From: Collinsella ihumii
GTDB taxonomy: Bacteria; Actinomycetota; Coriobacteriia; Coriobacteriales; Coriobacteriaceae
Assembly (NCBI RefSeq): GCF_900046475.1
Contig: NZ_FCOU01000002.1
Coordinates: forward strand, 62,001 to 126,000
Length of the DNA: 64,000 bases
Direction: 5' to 3'
Shown here: in pieces, positions 23,696 to 60,617 of the stretch
How the letters are laid out: every line of letters begins with the position of its first letter
Numbering within the stretch: position 1 is the stretch's first letter
Notes under the pieces: model-generated
Databases searched by the model: none
What the model was told of the DNA's origin: nothing
The model's input: only the letters and a program-made list of their open reading frames with translations
Translations under genes and position numbers: made by a program

Positions 23696-24706
23696 ATGGC
23701 ATTTCCCGTGTTAGATATGCACTGCGACACCGCCGACCGCATCGCCTGGCCCTCACTCGACCCGCTGTTTTACCAGCGTGTGGGCCATGCGCAGTTCAAT
23801 CCCGATGACCCTGCCGCCGCCGAGGACACCGCGCTCGACGATAACGGCTGCCACCTCTCGCTCAACAAGATGGGGGATATCCCGTGGGCGCAGTGCTTCG
23901 CCTGCTTTATCTACGACGAGTTCTCCCCCGAAGAGTCGATCGCGTTCTACCGCCACGTCATGGGCCATCTCGACGATGAGATCCGTGCGCACGCCGACCG
24001 CATCGCGCAGGCGCGCACCGCGGCGGACATCCGCCCGCGCCTGGAATCGGGCGGGCACGTGGCCGTGCGCACCATCGAGAACGCGCGCCTGTTCGCCGCC
24101 GATCCGGACCTCGTCGGCGCGCTTGCAGACGAAGGCGTGCTCATGGCCTCCTTGAGCTGGAATGCGCGCGGTCCGCTCGCAAGCGGCAACGACGCGCCCG
24201 AGGCGGGCGTCACCGAGCTGGGAGCCGAGATCATCCGCCGCATGGAAGACGCGCGCATGGTTCTCGACGTGTCGCACCTCAACGACACCTGCTTTGCAGA
24301 CGTGCTGCGCCTGACGACGCGCCCCTTCGTCGCCAGCCATTCGAACAGCCGCGCCGTCTGCGGGCATCCGCGCAACCTCACCGACGCCCAGTTCGCTGAG
24401 ATCCGCGACCGCGGCGGCGTGGTGGGCCTCAACTACTGTCCCGACTTCCTGCGCGACGACGCCTCGTCCGTCGAGCCCACGTTCGACGACCTGTGCCGTC
24501 ACGTTGAGCACTGGCTCGATCTGGACGGAGAGAACTCGGTCGCCCTCGGCAGCGACTTCGACGGGACGGACCTGCCGTCCTGCATCTCGTCTGCCGCCAA
24601 GACGCCCGAGCTCCAAGCGGTCTTTGCCGAGCGCTTCGGCGAGGAGATCACGCGCAAGCTGTGCTACGAGAACGCCCTGTCGTTCTTCGAGCGCTGGGGA
24701 CGGTAG
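23696..24706 (+). CDS. Membrane dipeptidase, peptidase M19 family
   Basis: Zinc-dependent dipeptidase of the renal-dipeptidase type, 336 aa. Metal and active-site motifs: LDMHCDTADRI (HxD), HLSLNKMGDIPWAQCFACF, VLDVSHLNDTCF, FVASHSNSRAVCGHPRNL (His ligands) and VALGSDFDGTDL. It hydrolyses dipeptides, sometimes including D-residues or cysteinyl-glycine. No signal peptide, so cytosolic. Start MAFPVLD at 23696 because conserved sequence begins at once; the upstream ribosome site is weak (TTGGAAGC). Monocistronic with a hairpin after it. Confidence 0.93.
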   Translation: MAFPVLDMHCDTADRIAWPSLDPLFYQRVGHAQFNPDDPAAAEDTALDDNGCHLSLNKMGDIPWAQCFACFIYDEFSPEESIAFYRHVMGHLDDEIRAHADRIAQARTAADIRPRLESGGHVAVRTIENARLFAADPDLVGALADEGVLMASLSWNARGPLASGNDAPEAGVTELGAEIIRRMEDARMVLDVSHLNDTCFADVLRLTTRPFVASHSNSRAVCGHPRNLTDAQFAEIRDRGGVVGLNYCPDFLRDDASSVEPTFDDLCRHVEHWLDLDGENSVALGSDFDGTDLPSCISSAAKTPELQAVFAERFGEEITRKLCYENALSFFERWGR

Positions 24707-29911: not shown

Positions 29912-30012
29912 ATGCAAATGGGGGACGTACCTTCCGCATGCACTTCTGCACGCCGAAGGTACGTCCCCCATTTGCATAAGTGCAAGCCGAAGGTACGTCC
30001 CCCAATTTGCAT
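29912..30012. repeat. GGGGACGTACCTTCCGC palindromic repeats (three units)
   Basis: One forward unit (TGCAAATGGGGGACGTACCT then TCCGCATGCAC) and two inverted units (GCCGAAGGTACGTCCCCCA). It fills the space between the convergent flavodoxin and antiterminator genes and can fold into strong hairpins. Same family at 43966-44288, 46634-46673, 54021-54053 and 54225-54323. Confidence 0.85.
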
Positions 30013-43965: not shown

Positions 43966-44288
43966 TGCAAATCGGGGGACGTACCTGCCGCGTGCATTCT
44001 TAGGGTGCCTATGGATAGCGGAGACATACATTTTACATATATTTATATGTATATTGCATATCGAAGGCGTACCAGCCGCACCAAAAGTGCAAATCGGGGA
44101 CGTACCTTCCGCTTGCATACTTAGGGTGCCCATGAATATCGGGGATGTAGCGTTTGTGTATTTTTTTATACATATCACATATCGTAGGCGTACCCGCTGC
44201 ACCAAAAGAATGCACGCGGAAGGTACGTCCCCCGATTTGCATAAGTGCACGCGGAAGGTACGTCCCCCTATTTGCGTCCCCCGATTTG
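43966..44288. repeat. Array of GGGGACGTACC repeats with two tandem 122-bp units
   Basis: Unit 1 (43966-44087) and unit 2 (44088-44210) start with TGCAAATCGGGG(G)ACGTACC and end in CCGCACCAAAAG or CTGCACCAAAAGAA. Both share TTAGGGTGCC and an AT-rich centre (TTTACATATATTTATATG in unit 1). Short inverted copies GGAAGGTACGTCCCCC follow to 44288. It fills the 456-bp gap between two minus-strand membrane protein genes. Confidence 0.85.
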
Positions 44289-46633: not shown

Positions 46634-46673
46634 GTGCAAAAGCGCATGCGGAAGGTACGTCCCCGATTTGCAC
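46634..46673 (-). repeat. GGGGACGTACCTTCCGC repeat, single unit
   Basis: GTGCAAAAGCGCATGCGGAA then GGTACGTCCCCGATTTGCAC; one inverted copy of the family at 29912. Confidence 0.8.
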
Positions 46674-47471: not shown

Positions 47472-47557
47472 TGAGGAATCACCGATCGATTCATTCCGCG
47501 GCAGGCGCCCTCGTGGCAAGGCGCCCGACGCGAGAGCAAGTAATCGGCGGCTCCCTA
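47472..47557. repeat. TAGGGAA-family element with both ends
   Basis: Left end TGAGGAATCACCGATCGATT then CATTCCGCGGCAGGCGCC. Right end on the minus strand TAGGGAGCCGCCGATTACTT then GCTCTCGCGTCGGGCGCC. 86 bp. It separates convergent genes; its TAG is the stop of the SGNH gene. Confidence 0.8.
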
Positions 47558-48538
47558 AAGCTCGGAGAGGCGCTTGACGTAGCGTCCGTGCGCCTCGTCC
47601 CAATCGGAGAATGCCTCGTCTCCGCGATGGTCGCCGACCCCATAGCGGCCCGCGAGTATCGAGCCTATGGCGCGGGTGACCTTCTGGGCGCCTCGCAGGT
47701 TGAGGTGGTCGCCGGCATCATAGGTGTCCTGCTGCCAGTCGATCTCCACCTTATCGGACCCGGAGTTGAGGTCGATGTAGTCCACGTCCAGCTCGTCGGC
47801 GACCTGAGCGATGCGGTTGTGCCGCGCCATATTCCAGTTCTTGGTGCTCGGCGTGCTCACGAGCACCAGGCGCGCGCCGGCATTCTTGCACATCTGCGAG
47901 ATCTGCTCGAGGTACGCGCGGTTGAGGTCCGCCATCGGGGTCAGCTCGTCAGTCGGCTCCATATAGCCCTGCGTGTCTGCCGGCTTCGCCTCGAGCGCGC
48001 GGCGCAGGCGGAACCCCTTGAGCTCATCGGCCCAGGTGTAGCGGACCGGGCTCAGGAAGTCCTCTGCGGTGAGGATCTTCCAGCGATCGTGGTACTCGAA
48101 GACGGGGAACACGTCTTTGAGCAGGCGCCGCGCCGCATCGGCCATGGAGAATCGCGCGAAGGTGCAGTTGGTCTCCAGCACCACGACGCGCGGCGTCTGC
48201 CGCTTCAGCGCGCGGGCGAGCAGGGTGCGCGTGTAGCACAGCCGCTGCGCCGCGGTGGCGCTCACGTACGACGTGATGCCCCGATCGCCCCACAGCTGCA
48301 GCGGGGAGAACGAGCTGAACGCCTCGGAATCACCGAGGAACAGTACGTCGACGCTGCCCTCGCGCTCGCCCATCACGCCGTTGGCGCGCGCGTCGATCTG
48401 CCCGAACTCCCGCTGGTTGTTCTTGGGCATCACCACATGCGACAGCACGGCCAGCACCACCAGAAACACCGCCACCGCCGCCACGGTGCGCAAGGCGTAC
48501 CGCAGGGGCAGGGGCAGCCCCTTGTTTCTCTGAATCAT
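47555..48538 (-). CDS. Membrane-anchored SGNH-type protein, DltD-like position
   Basis: 327-aa protein with one N-terminal membrane helix (TVAAVAVFLVVLAVLSHVVM, about 18-37) and an external SGNH hydrolase-like domain: VDVLFLGDSEAFSSFSPLQLWG with nucleophile Ser71, ARLVLVSTPSTKNW, and the Asp/His block YDAGDHLNLRGAQKVT near residue 290. Last gene of the Dlt-like operon, 63 bp after the MBOAT gene, the place of dltD in dltABCD. DltD helps move the acyl group to teichoic acid. Whether this one acts as esterase, transferase or scaffold cannot be read. GGGAG lies 6 bases before ATG 48538. Its stop is the TAG of a repeat element. Confidence 0.87.
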   Translation of the reverse strand: MIQRNKGLPLPLRYALRTVAAVAVFLVVLAVLSHVVMPKNNQREFGQIDARANGVMGEREGSVDVLFLGDSEAFSSFSPLQLWGDRGITSYVSATAAQRLCYTRTLLARALKRQTPRVVVLETNCTFARFSMADAARRLLKDVFPVFEYHDRWKILTAEDFLSPVRYTWADELKGFRLRRALEAKPADTQGYMEPTDELTPMADLNRAYLEQISQMCKNAGARLVLVSTPSTKNWNMARHNRIAQVADELDVDYIDLNSGSDKVEIDWQQDTYDAGDHLNLRGAQKVTRAIGSILAGRYGVGDHRGDEAFSDWDEAHGRYVKRLSEL

Positions 48539-48601
48539 GTCATCTCCCATCCAACGGGCGACGGGCACGGAAGCATCGCATCCGGCACCCGCCGCCCCCT
48601 A

Positions 48602-50167
48602 TCAGAACTGTGCGTACATGGGGTCAACCGGCTGGTAGTTCTCGCCGTACGCCCCGAACACGATGGCGACCAGAAACAGCGTCATGACCACGGCTGCGCG
48701 CCCCGCATAAGGCGCCGGACACAGCCGGGCGAGAGGATGGACGCCGCTCTCCCGCGCGCGCCCCACCGCAGCCAGAACCAGGATCGCCACGGCAACCAGG
48801 GCGAAGTCCGCGGCGTCCATGCCCAAGCCGAGGACGGTGCCGTCCACAGCCGATGCGAACGTGAACCCGCCCACGAGGCGGCCGAGCATGGCCAGCGCGT
48901 CGCCGGCGCTCGAGGCGCGGAAGATGAGCTCGCCCACCACGACCACCGCAAGCGTGCGCACGCGCTGCCACGCGCGCCAGGCGGCACCTGAGCGCGACAC
49001 GCCCATGCGGCCGCAGATCGCGTCTCCCGCCAGGCCCGCGAACCCTCCGAGCCAGATGAGCACGAAGTAGTAGAGTCCGAACAGCAGGTACTGGCTGCCC
49101 GCGCCGTGCCATATCCCGTTGCCGAGCCACACGCAGCCGAGGGCGATGCCGCTCGCGGCAAGCGGCCCCACGCGGTTGCCGAGCACGCGGCGGGCGGCGC
49201 CGGTCACGCGCTTGACGGGAGCGCTCAACGACACCGGGTAGAACACGTAGTCGCGAAACCATGCGCCCAAAGAGATGTGCCAGCGCTGCCAGAACTCCGC
49301 CGCCGTGCGCGACGCGAAGGGCTGACGGAAGTTCTCAGGCATCGTCACGCCGAAGATGCGCCCCGCGCCGACGGCGAAATCCATCGTGCCCGAGAAATCG
49401 CAGTACAGCTGCAGGGTGTAGAGGGTGGCCGCCAGGGCGATGACGCCCCCGTCGTAGGCGGCATGGTCGGAAAACACCGTCTTGACCAGCACGTTCACGC
49501 GATCGGCCACGACCATCTTCTTGACCAGGCCCCACATGATGCGCACCGACCCGCTCCACAGGCCGTCGACCGTGATGGGCCTGCCCGCCGAAAGGCTCGT
49601 GCCCACCTGGCCGTACCGGGAGATCGGACCCTCCATGACCTGCGGGAAAAATGACAGGAACAAGGCGAGCCTCAACGGGTTGCGCTCCGCCTGCACCCCG
49701 CCTCGGTACACGTCGACCACGTACGAGACCGCCTGCAGCGAGTAGAACGAGATGCCCATGGGCACGCCGATACCCGAGATGTCCAGCACTCCGCCTGCGG
49801 GCACGAAATGGGGCAGATAGCGCAGCACCGCCAGCAGACCGATGTTGACCGCCACGCCCACCGTCACGGCGCCGCGACGGTAGCGACGATAGCGACGCTT
49901 CACCGCGCGCCGGGCATCCGAGTCCGCAGCCGCCGCGCGCGCCGCCGCCTGCTGCCGATCCAACGAGGAAAGCGCCAGGCCCACCAACCAGATGGATACG
50001 GCGGAGAGCAGCACGAACGCGATGAGCACCCCGCTGACGCTCGCGTAGAACACGCAGCTCGCGGCCAGCAGCACGTAGGGGCGCACGCGCGGGGGCACCA
50101 GCTGGTAGAGCAGCACGGTGAGAGGCAGGATGACCCCGAGCATCGCCACCGAGAAATACGATTCCAT
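48602..50167 (-). CDS. dltB: MBOAT acyltransferase, DltB-like
   Basis: 521-aa polytopic membrane O-acyltransferase with about eleven helices. MBOAT signatures: PMGISFYSLQAVSYVVDVYRG, LFLSFFPQVMEGPISRYGQ, YCDFSGTMDFAVGAGRIFGV, ENFRQPFASRTAAEFWQRWHISLGAWFRDYVFYP with His297, and GNGIWHGAGSQYLLFGLYY with the catalytic His354. It should take the acyl group from the carrier protein and pass it across the membrane. A long basic loop (AAARAAAADSDARRAVKRRYRRYRRG, 74-99) is in the cytosol. 27 bp after the carrier gene and 63 bp before the SGNH gene. Confidence 0.93.
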   Translation of the reverse strand: MESYFSVAMLGVILPLTVLLYQLVPPRVRPYVLLAASCVFYASVSGVLIAFVLLSAVSIWLVGLALSSLDRQQAAARAAAADSDARRAVKRRYRRYRRGAVTVGVAVNIGLLAVLRYLPHFVPAGGVLDISGIGVPMGISFYSLQAVSYVVDVYRGGVQAERNPLRLALFLSFFPQVMEGPISRYGQVGTSLSAGRPITVDGLWSGSVRIMWGLVKKMVVADRVNVLVKTVFSDHAAYDGGVIALAATLYTLQLYCDFSGTMDFAVGAGRIFGVTMPENFRQPFASRTAAEFWQRWHISLGAWFRDYVFYPVSLSAPVKRVTGAARRVLGNRVGPLAASGIALGCVWLGNGIWHGAGSQYLLFGLYYFVLIWLGGFAGLAGDAICGRMGVSRSGAAWRAWQRVRTLAVVVVGELIFRASSAGDALAMLGRLVGGFTFASAVDGTVLGLGMDAADFALVAVAILVLAAVGRARESGVHPLARLCPAPYAGRAAVVMTLFLVAIVFGAYGENYQPVDPMYAQF

Positions 50168-50194
50168 AGCGATCGTCCCCGAAGCCGACAGGCC

Positions 50195-50428
50195 CTACAG
50201 ATCGGCCGCGCGCAGGCGGCTGACCATATCCCAGATCCCGGAGAGGGTGTTGAAGTTCGCGGGAACGATCTCCACTGCCGGGATGATGATGTCGAAGGCG
50301 TCCTCCAGCTCCGAGACGAGCGCGAGGATCGTGAGCGAATCGAGCACGCGCGCATCCACCAGATCGGTGCGGGTGCGATAGTCCTCGCCGGGTTTGAGGT
50401 CTTCGAGAATGTCGAGAATGGCGTCCAT
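50195..50428 (-). CDS. dltC: Acyl/aminoacyl carrier protein, DltC-like
   Basis: 77-aa carrier protein, four-helix fold. Ser31 in VDARVLDSLTILALVSELEDAFDI is the expected 4'-phosphopantetheine site (DSL motif). The C-terminal half PANFNTLSGIWDMVSRL is typical of DltC. It carries the activated amino acid as a thioester between the adenylating enzyme and the MBOAT. GGAAAGGAC precedes ATG 50428. 27 bp before the MBOAT gene and 186 bp after the decarboxylase-like gene. Confidence 0.93.
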   Translation of the reverse strand: MDAILDILEDLKPGEDYRTRTDLVDARVLDSLTILALVSELEDAFDIIIPAVEIVPANFNTLSGIWDMVSRLRAADL

Positions 50429-50614
50429 GGGTAGTCCTTTCCAATCGATTGATGCGAGACGGCGCGAACGCGCGCCGAGGATGACCGAGGGGCGGGTTGC
50501 ACCCCAGCCGCGGGGGACGGGTGCAGGCGGCAGGCCGCCACTTTGGATTCGGAAGGATGGCGGGTACGGCGGTCTGCCGTCTGCGCCCGTTCCTCGCGGC
50601 TGCCCTTGAGCCGG

Positions 50615-51859
50615 TTAGGGCGTCGGGGAGTTGAGCGGATCGGTGGGAAGCGCGTCGCGCACCAGGCGGGCCTCGCCCGATCGGTCCACGACCAGCACGC
50701 GCGGCAGGTCACGGCTCAAGAACAAGGAGATGCCCTCGGTGGCGCAGTAGGCTCCCGCCGTGCCGAACGCCAGCACGTCTCCGGTCCGCAGGCCCGCAAT
50801 CGGCATCTGCTTGGCGAGCAGGTCGTTCGCCGTGCAGAGCGACCCGCAGATGTTCCAGGCCTCGGATGCCAGGTCCGAACCTGCCGCGGGCGCCTCGTCC
50901 GCAGGCGCGCCGCCGGCTTGCGACAACAGCCGGCACGGGGGCTGGCGCATGGCCATCGACTGCCCGTAGTAGGCCAGATGGTGCATGCCGCCGTCCACGA
51001 TCGCGTAGCGCGCGCCCGCGTTCTCCTTGGCGTCCTCGACGCGCGTCAGATAGGTGCCGCAGCTTGCGACCATGCTTCGGCCCACCTCAAGCGTGACGTG
51101 ACCGCGCCACGCCATGCCCTCGAGCAGGCCGGCGAGCTCGGCGAGAAACGCGGTCTCGTCGAACGCGTCGCCCGCGAAGTACGCGACCGGCAAGCCGGGT
51201 CCGTACTCGAGCTCCGGCGCCTCCCATCCGAGCTCGTCTGCCATCTCGGACAGCAGCCGGTCGACGCGGGAAAGCTCGCGGCCGATGCGCTTCAGCGAGG
51301 TCTTCTGCGTTCCGGAGAAGAACTGCACGCCGCGCAGATCCGCATGCGGGTCGTCGAGCGCCCGACAGGCAAGCTGCTTGAGCTCGCCTGCGTCAACGCC
51401 GAACTGGTTGCCGCTCGTCAGGCGGAGCAGCAACGGAACGCAAGCCCTGTGGGCGCGCGCCCGATCCAGCACCAGGTCCATCTGGGCACGCGACTCCACC
51501 GTCACCGCGGCGGGCATCTCGGGCCACCGGAGCGCCGCGTCCACCGTCTGCGCATCCTTGTGCACGCCGGACACCACGACGGCACCGGCAGGCACTTGCA
51601 TGCGCTCGCAGATGCGCAGCTCGCCCGGCGAGCACGCCTCGATACGGTCCACGAGCGAGACGAGCTCGGGCAGCACGAAGGTGTTCGCCTTCATGGCGAA
51701 GCACAGGCCCACGCCCTCCGGGAGCATCTCACGCAGGTACGCGACGCGATCAGCGAGAACGCGCACGTCGAACACATAGGACGGCGTGCCGAAGTCCCGC
51801 GCAAGCCGAAGCAGGCCCGCGTCGTCCATTCCGAGGCCCGCAGGAACCGTTACGTTCAT
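50615..51859 (-). CDS. Fold-type III PLP decarboxylase inside the Dlt-like operon
   Basis: 414-aa enzyme of the diaminopimelate/ornithine decarboxylase family. N-terminal barrel: PSYVFDVRVLADRVAYLREML, PLP Lys57 in LCFAMKANTF, IEACSPGELRIC, LLLRLTSGNQFGVDAGELKQL, VQFFSGTQKTSLKRI (His of the usual HxGS block replaced), LEYGPGLPVAYF. C-terminal beta domain: VTLEVGRSMVASCGTYLTRV (E-x-GR motif binding PLP phosphate), VDGGMHHL and NICGSLCTANDLLAKQ (the C-x-x-x-D motif that supplies an active-site Cys). The same family includes BtrK, which decarboxylates a carrier-bound glutamate. Encoded between the adenylating enzyme and the carrier. AAAGGAC precedes ATG 51859. The substrate is not known. Confidence 0.9.
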   Translation of the reverse strand: MNVTVPAGLGMDDAGLLRLARDFGTPSYVFDVRVLADRVAYLREMLPEGVGLCFAMKANTFVLPELVSLVDRIEACSPGELRICERMQVPAGAVVVSGVHKDAQTVDAALRWPEMPAAVTVESRAQMDLVLDRARAHRACVPLLLRLTSGNQFGVDAGELKQLACRALDDPHADLRGVQFFSGTQKTSLKRIGRELSRVDRLLSEMADELGWEAPELEYGPGLPVAYFAGDAFDETAFLAELAGLLEGMAWRGHVTLEVGRSMVASCGTYLTRVEDAKENAGARYAIVDGGMHHLAYYGQSMAMRQPPCRLLSQAGGAPADEAPAAGSDLASEAWNICGSLCTANDLLAKQMPIAGLRTGDVLAFGTAGAYCATEGISLFLSRDLPRVLVVDRSGEARLVRDALPTDPLNSPTP

Positions 51860-52024
51860 GGGAAGTCCTTTCGTTTTCCGTTCGTGTCCGGATAAGGCCG
51901 CGGCCGCGGCCGCTTCGATCCGGGCGCGCTTTGGCCGCCTGCTCTCCCGCATGGGAGGAGACGTATGACTGTTGCGATATCGAAGAAGGGAAAGCAGCCG
52001 GCCGAAGCGCGCCCGGCAAGGTGC

Positions 52025-53617
52025 TCAGTTCGGAGACACCGCCCGTCGGTCCGCATGCAGGCGGAGGAGCTCGGCGCGGTCCACCTTGCCGTTCTTGGTG
52101 AGCGGCATGGTCTCCACCGGCACCACCGCCGCCGGCACGAACGGTCCGGGCAGCACCCGAGCCACGGCGTGGCGCAGGGCGCGCACGTCGATGTCCGCCC
52201 CTTCCACGAAGGCGCAGATCCGCTGTCGGCGCGCGTCGTACGCGCATCGGCAGCGCAGCACGCCCGGTTGCCGCTCGAACGCGGCATCGACCTCCTCGAG
52301 CTCGATGCGATGCCCCAGATGCTTGATCTGGTTGTCCGCCCGCCCGCAGAAGAAGAGTTCCCCGCCGTCCCCCAGACGCACCAGGTCGCCGGTGCGGTAC
52401 AGGGTCTCGCGCACGAGCGGCTGCAGTGGATTGCGCACGAAGGCCCGCGCGGTGCGCTCGTCGTCGCCCGCGTACCCCGAGGCGAGCGCCGAGCCGCCCA
52501 CGTACAGCTCGCCCATCTCGCCGGACCCGCGGACCTCATGCCCCGCGCCGTCCAGCACCAAAACGCGCCGGTTGGAAAACGGTTCTCCCAAAGGCATGCC
52601 GTCCCCATACGCCCGTTCGCGATCGACCTCGTGGAACAGGCAGTTGCACGTGACCTCGGTGGGGCCGTACAGGTTCACGAAGCGCGCTTGGGGCAGGCGC
52701 TCCATCCAGAGCCGCAGGTGATGCGGGGGCATGACCTCGCCGCTGAACATGACGAAGCGCACCCGCGGCAGATCCGCCCGCTCCAAGCCGCGCAGGGCGG
52801 ACAGCAGGCACAGCGCGGCCACCGCCCACACCATGACGGTCACGCGATGGGCTCGCAGCGCGTCCATCAGCTCCGAGGGCGCCGAGAACAGGCGACGCGG
52901 CAGGATGACCAGCCGCGCGCCGGCGGCCAAAGACCCGTAGATGTCCTTGACCGAGACATCGAAGTCGAACGGCGCCTGGTTGCCCAAGATGTCGTCCGGA
53001 CGCAGCCCGAACGTCTCGACGAACGTGCCCACGAAGTCGACGATGGCGCGATGGCTCACGACGACCCCTTTCGGCGTCCCCGTCGAGCCCGACGTGAACA
53101 GCACGTACGCGGCGTCGCTGTCCACGATGCCGCGCGCGGTGCGCGCGAGCCCAGCAACGTCTACGGGGCACTCGACCAGCTCCTCGGCAGCCAGCACGTC
53201 CGCCTCGGGAAAGCGCTCGCGCGCGGCCTCCCGGTCAGAGGCGGCGGCGATGACGGCCCTAGCGCCCGACGCCTTCAGCACCGCGCGGGAGCGCTCGACG
53301 GGCGCCGCCATGTCCACGGGCACGTAGCAGCCCCCGGCCGCAAGGACCCCGAACATGGCCGCGAGCATCAGCGAGCTCTTCTCCATGAACAGTACGACGG
53401 GCACGCCCGCATACCCGCCCGCGATCAGCCCGGACCCTGCACGGCGCGCACGGGAAAACAGCTGTCCGTAGGTATGCGACGAGCGCTCGTCCACAACCGC
53501 CACCCTGCCCGGATGACGGGCCGCCCCGCGCTCGAGAAACACAAGTGCGGTATGGCGGTACGCAGAGGCCCCCGCCTCGACGGCGGCGGGAGCGCTCTTA
53601 ACAAGCACCTCGTACAT
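52025..53617 (-). CDS. dltA: Amino-acid adenylating enzyme, DltA-like
   Basis: 530-aa AMP-forming ligase that activates an amino acid and loads it on the carrier protein. Core motifs: YVLFTSGSTGTPKGVVVSH (A3, 171-189), NQAPFDFDVSVKDIYGSL (A4, with the amino-group-binding Asp), VNLYGPTEVTC (A5), GELYVGGSALASGYAGD (A6), LYRTGDLVRLGDGGELFFCGRADNQIKHLGHRIELEEVD (A7-A8) and MPLTKNGKVDRAEL (A10 Lys511). It is DltA-like in length and context, but the pocket stretch VTVMVWAVAALCLLSALRG differs from the WVSTPSF of D-alanine DltA, so D-alanine should not be assumed. GAGAGGAGGT precedes ATG 53617. First gene of the operon. Confidence 0.92.
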   Translation of the reverse strand: MYEVLVKSAPAAVEAGASAYRHTALVFLERGAARHPGRVAVVDERSSHTYGQLFSRARRAGSGLIAGGYAGVPVVLFMEKSSLMLAAMFGVLAAGGCYVPVDMAAPVERSRAVLKASGARAVIAAASDREAARERFPEADVLAAEELVECPVDVAGLARTARGIVDSDAAYVLFTSGSTGTPKGVVVSHRAIVDFVGTFVETFGLRPDDILGNQAPFDFDVSVKDIYGSLAAGARLVILPRRLFSAPSELMDALRAHRVTVMVWAVAALCLLSALRGLERADLPRVRFVMFSGEVMPPHHLRLWMERLPQARFVNLYGPTEVTCNCLFHEVDRERAYGDGMPLGEPFSNRRVLVLDGAGHEVRGSGEMGELYVGGSALASGYAGDDERTARAFVRNPLQPLVRETLYRTGDLVRLGDGGELFFCGRADNQIKHLGHRIELEEVDAAFERQPGVLRCRCAYDARRQRICAFVEGADIDVRALRHAVARVLPGPFVPAAVVPVETMPLTKNGKVDRAELLRLHADRRAVSPN

Positions 53618-53855: not shown

Positions 53856-53993
53856 CCGAGTTTGTCATTGTTTTTGGGTCCCGTTTTCCCACCGTCGCGA
53901 TGGCTTCGACATTTCCGCAGGATCCAACTGGGGAAATGTCGAGAGGTGCGGCGCATGTGGAGAATCGGCACCGAAAAACAATGACAAACTCGG
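53856..53993. repeat. Arm-flanked element with CATTTCCGCAGGA core
   Basis: Outer arms CCGAGTTTGTCATTGTTTTT (53856) and CCGAAAAACAATGACAAACT (53971) are inverted copies over 20+ bp. Inside, CGACATTTCC / GGAAATGTCG (53907-53916, 53932-53941) forms a second hairpin over the core GCAGGATCC shared with the elements at 12820, 20093 and 59312. Confidence 0.8.
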
Positions 53994-54020: not shown

Positions 54021-54053
54021 TGCAAATTGGGGACGTACCTTCCGCATGCACTT
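54021..54053 (+). repeat. GGGGACGTACCTTCCGC repeat, single unit
   Basis: TGCAAATTGGGGACGTACCT then TCCGCATGCACTT. Confidence 0.8.
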
Positions 54054-54224
54054 CCGAACAGCCGGGAGCGCGACCCGCCCCGCCTCCCGGCTGCGACGAG
54101 CACCGGGGGCTCGCCCAGGACGCGCAGCGCCACAAGGCGCTCGGCAACTCCATAACAGCGCTGGTCATCGCGTGGAGAGGCCGGCGCATCGAGTGAGCTC
54201 TGCCCAGTCTGGCGGAGCCGCGAC

Positions 54225-54323
54225 TGCATATCGGGGACGTACCTTCCGCATGCGCTTGTGCACGCCGAAGGTACGTCCCCAGCGTGCAAAAGTGCATGCG
54301 GAAGGTACGTCCCCGATTTGCAC
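54225..54323. repeat. GGGGACGTACCTTCCGC repeats, three units
   Basis: One forward (TGCATATCGGGGACGTACCT) and two inverted units (CGAAGGTACGTCCCC; GGAAGGTACGTCCCCGATTT), the same forward-inverted-inverted order as at 29912. It ends 25 bp from the kinase stop. Confidence 0.85.
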
Positions 54324-54348: not shown

Positions 54349-56046
54349 CTAGCGGTCCGCCTCTTCTGCGCAGGGCAGTTGCAGCACGAAGCGGGTCGAC
54401 CATGGAGCGTCAACGGCAGTGTCGAGGTAGGCCATGCCGCCCATGACCTCGGCGGCGCGGCGCACGATCGAAAGCCCCAGGCCCGTCCCGCACCCTGCGG
54501 CGCGGGCCTCATCCGAGGTCGCGAACGGCTCGAAGATCCGCTCGGCTATCGCAGGGTCAACGCCCTTTCCCGTATCGGACACCGAGACCGTCACAAGCCC
54601 CGACCCCTCGTCACGCGAACACGCCACGCGGATTCGGACGCCGGGCTCATTATGAACACAGGCGTTGTCTATCAGATTCAGCACCGAGCGGCACAACAGT
54701 TGCACATCGACCAGGGCGCGCGCCGGACCTTCCGCGCACACCTCGAGCGTGCACCCGGCGCTCTCGACCTGCCCGCGCGCCTCGTCGGCGGCACGGCGCA
54801 CCTCGCACGCCACGTCGATCTCCAGCAGATGAGGCTCGTACGCGGGATGCTCCATCTTGGAGAAGCTGAACAGCAGGTCGATGAGCTCGCCCGCCGCCTG
54901 CGCCCGATCCCGCATGGAGCGCAGGTAGCCGGGCGCCTTGTCGGGGGGAACCACGCCGTCGGCAAGCGCCTGGGCGTACCCGCCGATGACTGTGAGCGGG
55001 GTCTTGAGGTCATGGGAGACGTCGGCGATGAGCTGTTGGCGTTCCAGTCGCGCCGTGCGCAGACGGTCCATGAGGTCGGTAAAGTTGTCATAGGTGGCCA
55101 TGAGCTCGCGAGGGACCTGCTCGGCGGGGGTGACCTCGCCTCCGTTCCGATACGTCTCGATCGCCCGGTCCAGCGGACGCGCCGCACGCCGCATCAGGCG
55201 CGCGAGCCCCCAGGCAGCCACGACCGTGGCGATCAACCCGGCAGGAATCGCCAGCAAGGCGATACGTCCCGCATCGTCCACCACGCGCTGATAGGAGGCA
55301 TCGTTCACCAGCGGGGCGGCCAGCACCAGCGTGCGCAGGTCGCCGTCAGCTGTCTGGTAATCGAGCCGCTCGACGGACATCCGCGCGTCGTACATGCCCT
55401 TGATGAAGTTGAATTCGCGACGGCTGAGCGAGGTCCTGCCCGAGAACAGGTCGCCGTCTAGAACGTTCAGGTCGGCATCGAGCAGCGCCTGAGCGTCGAT
55501 GCGCTTGTAGGCGGCGTCCACGAGCACGTCGGCGCCTCCGTCCGCATCGCCGGCCTCTACGAGCACATCGTACTCGGTGGCCGAGCACATCATGATGCGA
55601 TAGCACGGCTCTCCGTCGACCTGCTCGGAAAACACCTCGTAGAACAGGCCCTCCCGATAATCGTTGATGAGCGGCAGGTAGCTCGCCCTGATCTTTTTGG
55701 CAGCGACGTCGTCGGAGGCGTACAGCCGCGTCCCGTCGCCGTCGAACACCGCGATGCGGCACGAGGAGAGCTCGGGATCCCGCAGCGCGCCGAACCGGTC
55801 GTGCTCGAGATCCCCCTCGTGCGCAAGAACCGTCTCCATGGACGGAAAGGCGGTCGCCAGCAAGAACTCGCCGGCCGCCCCCACCGCGAAGGCGATAGCA
55901 CCCAGCACGAACGCGTAGGCCGCGAGCACGGCCAGGCAGCGGGCGGTCAGGCTGCGAGTCGCGACGCGCAGCGCGCCGGCAAGCGATCTGCTCCTCATCC
56001 CGCGTCGCCCGGATCCACCCCGGACGCGCCCGCTTTCCTTACGCAT
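54349..56046 (-). CDS. Sensor histidine kinase with extracellular sensor domain
   Basis: 565 aa. First membrane helix about 37-67 (CLAVLAAYAFVLGAIAFAVG), an external domain of about 190 aa (SMETVLAHEGDLEHDRFG to PLVNDASYQRVV), second helix about 262-283 (IALLAIPAGLIATVVAAWGLA), HAMP-like segment, DHp with His345 in LIADVSHDLKTPLTVIGGYAQAL, N box SVLNLIDNACVH, DTGKGVDPAIAERIFEPF, GCGTGLGLSIVRRAAEVMGG. A standard Arc-type kinase. Its ATG overlaps the regulator stop by 8 bp (ATGCGTAA). It lies upstream of the Dlt-like operon, reading the same way, but 730 bp of repeats separate them. The signal is unknown. Confidence 0.93.
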   Translation of the reverse strand: MRKESGRVRGGSGRRGMRSRSLAGALRVATRSLTARCLAVLAAYAFVLGAIAFAVGAAGEFLLATAFPSMETVLAHEGDLEHDRFGALRDPELSSCRIAVFDGDGTRLYASDDVAAKKIRASYLPLINDYREGLFYEVFSEQVDGEPCYRIMMCSATEYDVLVEAGDADGGADVLVDAAYKRIDAQALLDADLNVLDGDLFSGRTSLSRREFNFIKGMYDARMSVERLDYQTADGDLRTLVLAAPLVNDASYQRVVDDAGRIALLAIPAGLIATVVAAWGLARLMRRAARPLDRAIETYRNGGEVTPAEQVPRELMATYDNFTDLMDRLRTARLERQQLIADVSHDLKTPLTVIGGYAQALADGVVPPDKAPGYLRSMRDRAQAAGELIDLLFSFSKMEHPAYEPHLLEIDVACEVRRAADEARGQVESAGCTLEVCAEGPARALVDVQLLCRSVLNLIDNACVHNEPGVRIRVACSRDEGSGLVTVSVSDTGKGVDPAIAERIFEPFATSDEARAAGCGTGLGLSIVRRAAEVMGGMAYLDTAVDAPWSTRFVLQLPCAEEADR

Positions 56047-56797
56047 CGAGCCGGTACCCCAAGCCGCGCACGGTCCTGATATAGCGGGGGCGCAGCGGAT
56101 CGTCTTCCAGCTTGGCGCGGATGTTCGAGATATGCACCATGACGCTGCCGGCTCCGCCCACCGCAGGCTCCCCGTTCACGCAGGTGTACAGCTGGTCCTT
56201 GGAGAACACGCGGCCCGGCGAGGCCATGAAGGCGGCCACGATCTTCAGCTCCGCCGCGGTAAGCGGGACGGCGCGGCCCAGGCGGCTGAACACCAGTCGC
56301 TCCGTGTCGAACGAAAGGTCGCCGCAGGTCAAAACCGAAGAAGAGGGAGACGGGGATCTCTGCTCGCCCATCTCGGCACCCGTGCCCGAAGCGGCCTGCG
56401 GGGCGTCGCCGCCCTCGGCGTCGGTCCCCCGCATCGATGCGCGGCGCAGCACCGCGCGAACGTAGGCGGTCACCTCCAACGGGTCGAACGGCTTCGAGAT
56501 GTAACCGTCCGCCCCAGCGTCTAGCCCTACGATCTTGTCGGCGGGCATCGTGCGGGCGGACACGATGATGATCGGCACGTCGCTGAACGCACGCGCTGCG
56601 CGTATGAAGTCGAAGCCGTTCATGCACGGCATCATGATGTCCACAAGCGCCACATCCACCGGATGCTCGCGCACCGTCGCGAGCGCCTGCTCCCCGTCCG
56701 CAGCCGTAAGCACCTGGAACCCAGCCGCCGCAAGATAGAGGCTCAACAGCTCGACGATGTCCGCGTCGTCCTCGGCTATCAGCACGGTCTGCGCCAT
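56039..56797 (-). CDS. OmpR-family response regulator
   Basis: 252 aa, partner of the overlapping kinase gene. Receiver: TVLIAEDDADIVELLSLYLAAAG, Asp53 in VALVDIMMPCMNGFDFI, IIIVSAR, GYISKPFDPLE. An unusually long linker (about 118-160, RRASMRGTDAEGGDAPQAASGTGAEMGEQRSPSP) separates it from the winged helix: PLTAAELKIVAAFMASPGRVFSKDQLYTCV, VMVHISNIRAKLEDDPLRPRYIRTVRGLGYRL. GATCGGAGGTGC precedes ATG 56797. Confidence 0.95.
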   Translation of the reverse strand: MAQTVLIAEDDADIVELLSLYLAAAGFQVLTAADGEQALATVREHPVDVALVDIMMPCMNGFDFIRAARAFSDVPIIIVSARTMPADKIVGLDAGADGYISKPFDPLEVTAYVRAVLRRASMRGTDAEGGDAPQAASGTGAEMGEQRSPSPSSSVLTCGDLSFDTERLVFSRLGRAVPLTAAELKIVAAFMASPGRVFSKDQLYTCVNGEPAVGGAGSVMVHISNIRAKLEDDPLRPRYIRTVRGLGYRLDA

Positions 56798-56946
56798 GAT
56801 GCACCTCCGATCTCGATCATTTGCTGACCATCCTAGCGGGTCGGAGGGCATGCCATGGGCAATTCACAGGTGTCTACAATCTGTCGACGCCCTGGTACGA
56901 GGGTGCGCCCCCATGCTCCGGGAACGAGGCAGACGACAGGGCGCCC

Positions 56947-59458: not shown

Positions 59459-60400
59459 TCAGCCGAAGAACAACGCGAGCAAAAAGGGAACGCACGTCGA
59501 GCAGATGATGCCGTTGACCAGCGAGAACACCACTGTCCGCTCGTCGGTGTAGCGGATCATCATGGGAAGGGTCGTGTCCTCGCTCGTAGCGGCGCCCGCG
59601 GCGATACAGGCGTAGAAGTTGAGATGGCGCGCGATCCACGGGATGCAGAAAAACGAGATGAGCTCGCGCATCAGGCTGCTGAGAAACGCGATCGCCCCGA
59701 GCTGGGCGCCGGCCATCCCCTCGATCGTGACGCCCGCCAGGCTGTACCAGCCCAGACCGCTCGCCACGCCCATGCCCTCGCGCAGGCCGTAGCCGAGCGC
59801 CACCGCGGCGAGCGCTCCTCCGACTATCGAACCCACGACCACGCCGAACGGAATCACCAGCGTCTTGACATGATGCTCGCGGATGCTCGAGATCAGCCCA
59901 CGACGAAGGCCCACGCTGATGCCCACCGAGAACATCAAGAGCCACAGCACGAGCGTGCTGTGATCCGACAGGAGCGCGAACGGCGCAAAGGCGGGCGCGG
60001 CCAGGCCGGCCAAGATACCGAGCGCGAGCGCGATGAAGGCCATGATGGCGAAGCCCTCCTCGTGCACCACGGCACGGATGCGGCGCGCGATGCCGCCCGT
60101 CGCACCAGGATGGGCGCCAGCGGATGGATCGGGCCTCCCGTCTCCCATGAGCCAATTCGTGAGCAGGTAGACGAGGATCACCGAGCAGACGGTCGGCAGC
60201 AGGCAGAACACGAGGCTCTGTGCACCGAAGACGCCGAGGTTCGAGAGAAAGTCGTCTTGCGCCCCAAGCGAGATGCCCATCGCGAAGATCAGCAGCGCCG
60301 TGCAGCAGGTCTGGAACAGCTCGTTGACGCGCTTGACCGACGCGGGAACGAGCAGCCTTCCCACGACCGCGCCCGCGCACATGATGACCAGAATGTCCAC
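59459..60400 (-). CDS. LysO-like (DUF340) amino-acid exporter
   Basis: 313-aa membrane protein with about nine helices: VDILVIMCAGAVVGRLLV, LLIFAMGISLGAQDDFLSNLGVFG, LVLWLLMFSVGISVGLRRGL, TLVIPFGVVVGSIVGGALAAV, and the conserved LGWYSLAGVTIEGMAGAQLGAIAFLSSLMRELISFFCIPWIAR and GAATSEDTTLPMMIRYT. The helix pairs with (A/S)MG(I/V)S.G and the GWYSL...R..EL..F block are those of LysO (YbjE) lysine/thialysine exporters. Start GTG at 60400 after GGGGGAGGCGAC. A loop with GDGRPDPSAGAHPGATGG separates the two halves. Confidence 0.9.
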   Translation of the reverse strand: MDILVIMCAGAVVGRLLVPASVKRVNELFQTCCTALLIFAMGISLGAQDDFLSNLGVFGAQSLVFCLLPTVCSVILVYLLTNWLMGDGRPDPSAGAHPGATGGIARRIRAVVHEEGFAIMAFIALALGILAGLAAPAFAPFALLSDHSTLVLWLLMFSVGISVGLRRGLISSIREHHVKTLVIPFGVVVGSIVGGALAAVALGYGLREGMGVASGLGWYSLAGVTIEGMAGAQLGAIAFLSSLMRELISFFCIPWIARHLNFYACIAAGAATSEDTTLPMMIRYTDERTVVFSLVNGIICSTCVPFLLALFFG

Positions 60401-60617
60401 CGTCGCCTCCCCCTGTCGACACAACCGCCCCATTGTAGCCGCACCGATGCGCGACGCGGGTCGTTTTCATGCGGAACACTTGGCCGATTCGGTCCCCTCC
60501 GGCAGCCGAATGCGGTGCGCATGCTGGTATATCGCACGGCAGAGCGGGTATTTCCCGAGCGACATCCAACCCATGGGCGCCCGCATCGAGCGGTGCCTCA
60601 ACATGAAAGGACCAGAT

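Follow-up and report, generated by a model that had tools for sequence, protein, structure and literature searches.

The Collinsella ihumii DNA analysed here (contig NZ_FCOU01000002.1, positions 62,001 to 126,000; 64,000 nucleotides, hereafter the window) carries on its minus strand a five-gene operon. It is a genuine and widely distributed variant of the MBOAT-SGNH type of surface acylation, to which a decarboxylase has been added. The genes encode, in order, a stand-alone amino-acid adenylating enzyme (ADE), a fold-III pyridoxal phosphate (PLP) decarboxylase (DEC), an acyl carrier protein (ACP), an MBOAT transferase (MBOAT) and a membrane-anchored SGNH-fold protein (SGNH). An earlier note on this DNA had described a dlt-like operon with an embedded decarboxylase, and that description holds: the five open reading frames (ORFs) are present where it had placed them and in that order, their Pfam families agree with it, and the SGNH assignment is upheld by a structure model. 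Judging from the sequences, the operon probably puts a positively charged group other than D-alanine, for example beta-alanine or 4-aminobutyrate (GABA), on the cell surface. No description of such an operon was found among the titles and abstract beginnings of the literature searched. The completeness of the genome is 98.38%.

We favor, with moderate confidence, a regulated surface-aminoacylation pathway in which an acidic residue is loaded through its side chain, decarboxylated on ACP and, by way of MBOAT and SGNH, attached to a polymer of the envelope. In such a pathway, ADE would activate the side-chain carboxyl of an acidic amino acid, L-aspartate or L-glutamate being the likeliest, and load the amino acid onto ACP, and DEC would then strip the alpha-carboxyl to leave beta-alanyl-ACP or 4-aminobutyryl-ACP. 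MBOAT would move this acyl group from ACP to the tyrosine of its own C-terminal YxxF, from which the SGNH serine would take it and form an ester with an extracellular polymer, either of the wall or anchored to a lipid. The surface would thereby gain a cationic substituent in the role of D-alanylation. If decarboxylation takes place on the carrier, the chemistry implies side-chain loading, since a PLP alpha-decarboxylase requires a free alpha-amino and a free alpha-carboxyl group and a residue held by its alpha-carboxyl has none free. The earlier proposal that the loaded residue is decarboxylated on the carrier therefore stands in part: the step itself agrees with a non-DltA pocket, the loss of LysA substrate motifs from DEC and the conservation of the operon, whereas an ordinary alpha-aminoacyl thioester would offer no free alpha-carboxyl, and attachment through the side chain is needed. 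There are precedents in the papers cited here for parts of their text: decarboxylation in the VinN/VinL/VinO system has to wait until the thioester has formed, and FlvN uses aspartate (PMC11284099), while BtrK acts on a glutamyl-carrier whose side-chain loading follows from its GABA product (PMC7857480).

Table 1. Features of the operon and of the genes upstream of it, in window coordinates
Feature	Position	Strand	Details
ADE, stand-alone amino-acid adenylating enzyme	52025-53617	-	First gene; 530 aa
DEC, fold-III PLP decarboxylase	50615-51952	-	Between ADE and ACP
ACP, carrier protein	50195-50428	-	
MBOAT transferase	48602-50167	-	521 aa
SGNH, membrane-anchored SGNH-fold protein	47555-48568	-	
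ADE pocket D220-V221-S222-V223-K224	52946-52960	-	K where DltA has M (DltA: D-L-S-V-M)
DEC motif GSLCTAND	50822-50845	-	Cys and Asp kept; Thr where LysA has Glu
MBOAT C-terminal PMYAQF	48605-48622	-	Acyl-shuttle-like end (xxYxxF)
Sensor histidine kinase	54349-56046	-	HisKA, HATPase_c; 731 bp before ADE
OmpR-type response regulator	56039-56851	-	Response_reg, Trans_reg_C

The pocket of ADE sets the operon apart from D-alanylation. ADE is the genome's sole match to the Pfam AMP-binding family (E 3.7e-73) and exceeds the cut-off of TIGR01733 (356.7 bits), while its scores against the DltA models, 265.8 and 273.2 bits, lie under the cut-offs of 559.85 and 476. Its predicted structure (predicted local distance difference test score, pLDDT, 90.2) has the adenylation (A) domains of nonribosomal peptide synthetases (NRPS) and DltA as its closest PDB folds; identity to DltA is 28%. 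As the earlier note had observed, the pocket departs from that of DltA, with VMVWAVAALCLL in place of the W-T-STPSF of Bacillus subtilis DltA. If residues D220-K224 are taken to be GrsA positions 235-239, the code of ADE reads D235 V236 K239 V278 M299 S301 L322 C330 N331 K517, plus W279, and B. subtilis DltA has L236, M239, S279, C301, V330 and A331. The two enzymes differ at seven of the ten code positions and agree at 235, 299 and 517, and the D-alanine pocket of the DltA type (STPSF, FCGE, Met at 239) is not what ADE carries. Eight positions of this pocket are fully conserved: D235, V236, K239, W279, S301, C330, N331 and C332 are invariant in all 78 readable rows of an alignment of 79, as are the D, V, S and K of the 235-239 stretch. 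We propose that Lys239 (K224) holds the free alpha-carboxylate of the substrate. None of 18 operon-bearing genomes searched contains a DltA above cut-off; one of them has an extra DltA-like enzyme (L153; 457.6 bits, cut-off 559.85; 39.5% identical to DltA) that carries STPSF and FCGE, with Tyr instead of Met at position 239.

DEC matches Pfam Orn_DAP_Arg_deC (E 7.8e-14; PF00278, PF02784), with TIGR03099 as its best NCBIfam match (153.2 bits, cut-off 478.45). Against TIGR01048, the model of the diaminopimelate (DAP) decarboxylase LysA, it scores 137-143 bits, well short of the cut-off of 297.9, and among its PDB sequence matches BtrK (7ru7/2j66) takes ranks 2 and 3 behind a DAP decarboxylase. 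All 81 of 81 operon DEC rows retain the PLP lysine, the ELGR Glu and both the Cys and the Asp of CxxxD; together with PF00278, the conserved Cys and Asp favor a decarboxylase over the racemase-like activity that had been suggested as an alternative. In LysA, the motifs R-x-x-[LM]-Y and CE-x-x-D hold the distal half of DAP. Both are present in 10/10 LysA rows and absent from the operon DECs, in which Thr replaces the LysA Glu (CT-x-x-D) in 73/81 rows, and this Thr is found in all five carrier-type rows (BtrK, an exosortase-linked enzyme, one from Paracoccus and two from Streptomyces). DEC of the window has the same combination as BtrK, CT-x-x-D without R-x-x-[LM]-Y, and is 23.6-31.0% identical to the carrier-type rows and 20.3-25.0% to the LysA rows. 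By the loss of the LysA substrate motifs and the presence of CT-x-x-D, DEC thus resembles carrier-dependent decarboxylases.

In an unrooted tree of 38 rows, which included 21 of the 81 operon rows, the operon DECs form one clade (100/97) with two variant-operon DECs (L118, L119) as its sister. We also considered whether DEC is simply the only DAP decarboxylase of its genome, a case the earlier note had raised, and rejected this for the genome itself and for 15 of 18 relatives, the check covering 18 of the 80 loci described below. The genome encodes a second LysA-like protein that scores 267 bits for LysA, versus 137 for DEC, with 267 itself below the LysA cut-off; 15/18 relatives have a LysA match of at least 258 bits besides the operon DEC. 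The LysA-like protein of the genus (L116 in this genome) is divergent, lacking HIGSQ and keeping RPAMY and CENND.

The remaining three genes encode a carrier and a probable export route. ACP matches the PP-binding family (E 4.2e-5), and its phosphopantetheine serine, Ser31 in LDSL, is Ser in 80/80 rows; its best NCBIfam match is the DltC model at 33.2 bits (cut-off 68). MBOAT (PF03062, E 3e-12) is the genome's sole MBOAT match, scores best against the DltB model TIGR04091 (154.9 bits, cut-off 375) and has the histidine motifs RWH and WHG, both His being kept in 77/77 rows. It joins these histidines with a C-terminal shuttle motif: the xxYxxF end, usually DP[IM]YAxF, is found in 76/77 MBOAT rows, and the 77th (L029) is cut by a contig end. 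In Dlt the acyl shuttle FXYXXF is carried by DltX, and a similar motif stands at the MBOAT C-terminus in acyl-CoA (coenzyme A) pathways described without a carrier protein in the parts of PMC12148441 cited here; relative to FXYXXF, the operon MBOATs have the first Phe replaced by Pro or some other residue. It is because of this conserved motif and the PatA/DltX precedent that we propose a shuttle role for the MBOAT tyrosine.

SGNH is weakly matched by sequence (E 9.8e-4, under the Pfam cut-off, with Lipase_GDSL_2 in 4/32 family members). Its predicted structure (pLDDT 94.6) has an N-terminal helix at 20-46, and Foldseek places SGNH hydrolases best, with DltD (6o93/6pfx/3bma) among the matches (E 4e-6 to 7e-4); template modelling (TM) scores by query length of 0.33-0.39 indicate a shared core and no close match. 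The catalytic residues are nearly invariant (Ser81 in 72/73 rows, Asp284 and His288 in 73/73, with DxxxH spacing), so that the protein has the catalytic Ser and His of an SGNH-fold partner, with low TM to known structures.

To see whether the five genes stay together, as the earlier note had suggested surveying, we compared 80 loci, the best 80 of 126 relatives retrieved with DEC, which come from Coriobacteriia and many Clostridia, plus a few from elsewhere. ADE-DEC-ACP-MBOAT-SGNH is contiguous in 66/80, more than chance would give (59 exact, 7 with a gene added or split), and DEC adjoins ADE in most of the 80. Three of the 14 non-standard loci (L029, L066, L085) end at contig ends, and L074 lies on a short contig with its ADE side cut and MBOAT absent from the remaining 1.8 kb. 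In L064, ACP lies farther along on the opposite strand, and SGNH was not detected in L078 and L092. Four loci (L072, L088, L089, L095) have the order ADE-DEC-MBOAT-SGNH-ACP-MBOAT-SGNH; here two MBOAT-SGNH pairs accompany a single set of ADE, DEC and ACP, as though the same loaded carrier fed two acceptors. Occurrence is patchy, with DEC present in 14/65 genomes of the family and only 2/43 of the genus, and a search of viral contigs for operon relatives confirmed none.

Parts of the gene set also occur in other company. Variant operons, to which the DECs L118 and L119 belong, read ADE-DEC-ACP (L126) and MBOAT-SGNH-ADE-DEC-ACP (L127), and ADE-ACP-DEC cassettes without MBOAT exist in Streptomyces (L122), Paracoccus (L123) and, in the exosortase type, Sphingomonas (L124). 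Decarboxylases stand beside ACP genes on plasmids in L121-L124, with L123 among glycosyltransferase 61 genes and L124 in an exosortase A locus.

The relation between DEC and ADE was followed in a class sample of 246 genomes, with thresholds of E<=1e-60 for DEC and at least 616 bits for ADE, the DEC and ADE samples being taken as the same. DEC is found in 32/246 and ADE in 38/246, all 32 DEC genomes carry ADE, and DEC without this ADE occurs in 0/208 class genomes. Since five of the 38 ADE genomes have no operon-type DEC, the enzyme is not strictly required, and DEC depends on ADE and not the reverse. It is this one-way dependence, together with the DEC motifs and the place of the gene between ADE and ACP, that leads us to put the DEC step on ACP.

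Several observations weigh against this proposal. The five ADE genomes without operon-type DEC (G214, G224, G202, G266, G261) yielded weak matches of 93-101 bits in four cases and none at E<=0.001 in G214, and seven loci (L161-L167) have MBOAT, SGNH, ADE and ACP with no adjacent DEC. Two loci (L087, L094) have ADE-DEC-ACP with no MBOAT detected within more than 7 kb downstream, and L091 has DEC-ACP-MBOAT-SGNH with no ADE within 7.9 kb upstream. The pocket lysine is absent from the ADEs of three other aligned ADE-ACP-DEC cassettes. In the unrooted, long-branched tree, the operon, carrier-type and LysA rows make three groups, and DEC is not placed nearer BtrK than LysA. A GTQ motif that we had tried as a mark of the carrier type was given up because only part of the carrier-type rows share it, the exosortase row having GSQ and the Streptomyces rows GTR. 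Finally, three of the 18 genomes checked (G269, G272, G275) have no LysA match other than the operon DEC, and a role in lysine synthesis is possible there.

The DEC-less operons bear on the order of the first two steps. Their ADE pocket is nearly the same, with K239, W279 and C330-N331-C332 kept in 7/7 of L161-L167, V236 changed in 4/7 and S301 in 1/7. Five of these loci are those of the genomes without operon-type DEC. The other two come from G265, where the locus is arranged divergently and an incomplete operon-type DEC lies at the end of a contig, and from G229, which has a DEC operon elsewhere in the genome. Such a pocket would be expected if DEC acted first, with free aspartate, glutamate or some other dicarboxylic amino acid as its substrate, with ADE activating the product and the DEC-less operons obtaining beta-alanine or GABA from elsewhere, and GABA of the gut or beta-alanine made by PanD could supply them. 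We nevertheless consider this order less likely, since the invariant pocket Lys would have no obvious partner in a substrate with no second carboxylate, DEC has lost the LysA motifs for a free substrate, and no DEC occurs without ADE in the class samples. In our reading the two kinds of operon are a single machine whose front ends can be exchanged, and DEC alters the charge of the product. More distant operons (L169-L172) have ADE, ACP, MBOAT and SGNH with Ser or Thr for the amino-binding Asp235 (Ser in L170-L172) and no adjacent DEC; from this pocket they likely export other acyl groups.

A different objection concerns how the residue is held. As in NRPS Glu/Asp domains, ADE could load an acidic amino acid through the alpha-carboxyl, or it could load meso-DAP, with DEC acting at the distal centre or for another product. 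Lys239 occurs in some Glu-activating NRPS codes, for which a literature search found nothing. DEC lacks both R-x-x-[LM]-Y and CE-x-x-D, which counts against a distal centre, and DEC would find nothing to act on at the carrier if Glu or Asp were alpha-linked; we therefore give this loading little credence, even though BtrK and its kin fall in one clade with DAP decarboxylases in the part of PMC7857480 cited here.

The destination of the group could also differ, the acceptor being a glycolipid, an exopolysaccharide, a protein or a small molecule outside the cell. Among the 30 commonest flank clusters we recognized no polymer-synthesis gene by eye, no family search having been made, and the Paracoccus cassette sits among glycosyltransferase genes. 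We think another target improbable, because MBOAT-SGNH pairs acylate envelope polymers (PMC12148441, as above) and because the 18 operon genomes searched lack a DltA above cut-off, as if the operon stood in for dlt. An ordinary D-alanylation operon with a decarboxylase present by chance, suggested by the dltABCD-like layout and by the DltB and DltC models as best matches, is so improbable that we rejected it on the ADE pocket and model scores: the DltA, DltB and DltC cut-offs are missed by far, DEC keeps its place in relatives, and one genome has a separate DltA-like enzyme besides the operon.

Returning to decarboxylation on the carrier, we suggest more tentatively that in many Clostridia and Coriobacteriia of the gut this pathway takes the place of wall D-alanylation: a backward-loaded acidic residue would be decarboxylated on its carrier to beta-alanine or GABA and exported by a self-shuttling MBOAT, and loss of DEC in some lineages would switch the substituent from cationic to zwitterionic.

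Upstream of the operon lie a sensor histidine kinase and an OmpR-type response regulator (Table 1). Among loci with at least 3.5 kb of upstream sequence, such a pair is found within 4.2 kb upstream in 29/64 (21 on the same strand, 8 divergent), compared with 1/49 downstream, and the commonest flank clusters, as judged by eye, are kinase, regulator and ABC-transporter-like ORFs. Control of the operon by the kinase-regulator pair is possible. In the stretch that separates the kinase from the start of the operon is a 37-base inverted repeat (53856-53892 / 53957-53993, 86% complementary, 64 nt apart). A dispersed repeat around CGGAAGGTACGTCCC has 13 sites in the window at no more than 2 mismatches, against 0.12 expected, in the regions 24563-24577, 29922-30001, 43976-44266, 46649-46663 and 54030-54313; a number of the copies form inverted-repeat pairs, and some of these lie between kinase and ADE. 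Farther upstream is a LysO-type lysine exporter (PF03956, 196.7 bits, 59459-60433).

Control of envelope charge matters for resistance to cationic antimicrobial peptides and for host sensing of Gram-positive gut bacteria. If the favored pathway is true, gut bacteria over a broad range would have a surface group not described in the titles and abstract beginnings searched, made by a decarboxylation on the carrier that has been described for antibiotic biosynthesis (PMC11284099, PMC7857480, in the parts cited), and operons with and without DEC would offer a ready natural comparison.

Each known system resembles a part of the operon. The exosortase A trio (TIGR03098, TIGR03099 and ACP) has its ligase and decarboxylase encoded in the same locus as ACP (L124), but that locus has no MBOAT-SGNH pair, its ligase is without the Lys pocket, and our operon scores only 193.5 bits for TIGR03098 (cut-off 592.35) and 153.2 for TIGR03099. 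In BtrI-BtrK of butirosin biosynthesis the loading enzyme is of another type than ADE. BtrK shares with DEC the CT-x-x-D motif and the loss of LysA motifs (sequence of PDB 2j66), and its substrate is a glutamyl-carrier (PMC7857480); DEC-BtrK identity is 23.6%, and the butirosin side chain ends in an antibiotic. VinN-VinL-VinO and FlvN, likened here by description only, combine an adenylating enzyme, a stand-alone ACP and a PLP decarboxylase with an Asp-type substrate decarboxylated on the carrier, though the macrolactam product goes to a polyketide synthase (PMC11284099). PatA-PatB and other MBOAT-SGNH pairs share the C-terminal shuttle-like motif and the SGNH partner, yet they draw on acyl-CoA, with no carrier protein in the account cited, whereas our operon encodes one (PMC12148441). 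Dlt (DltA, DltC, DltB-DltX, DltD) likewise has adenylating enzyme, carrier, MBOAT and SGNH in one operon; the operon described here differs in its pocket, its extra decarboxylase and its scores below the equivalog cut-offs, and it has the shuttle-like motif on the MBOAT end where Dlt has it on DltX. As read from its genes, the operon mixes both designs, a carrier protein and a built-in shuttle-like motif.

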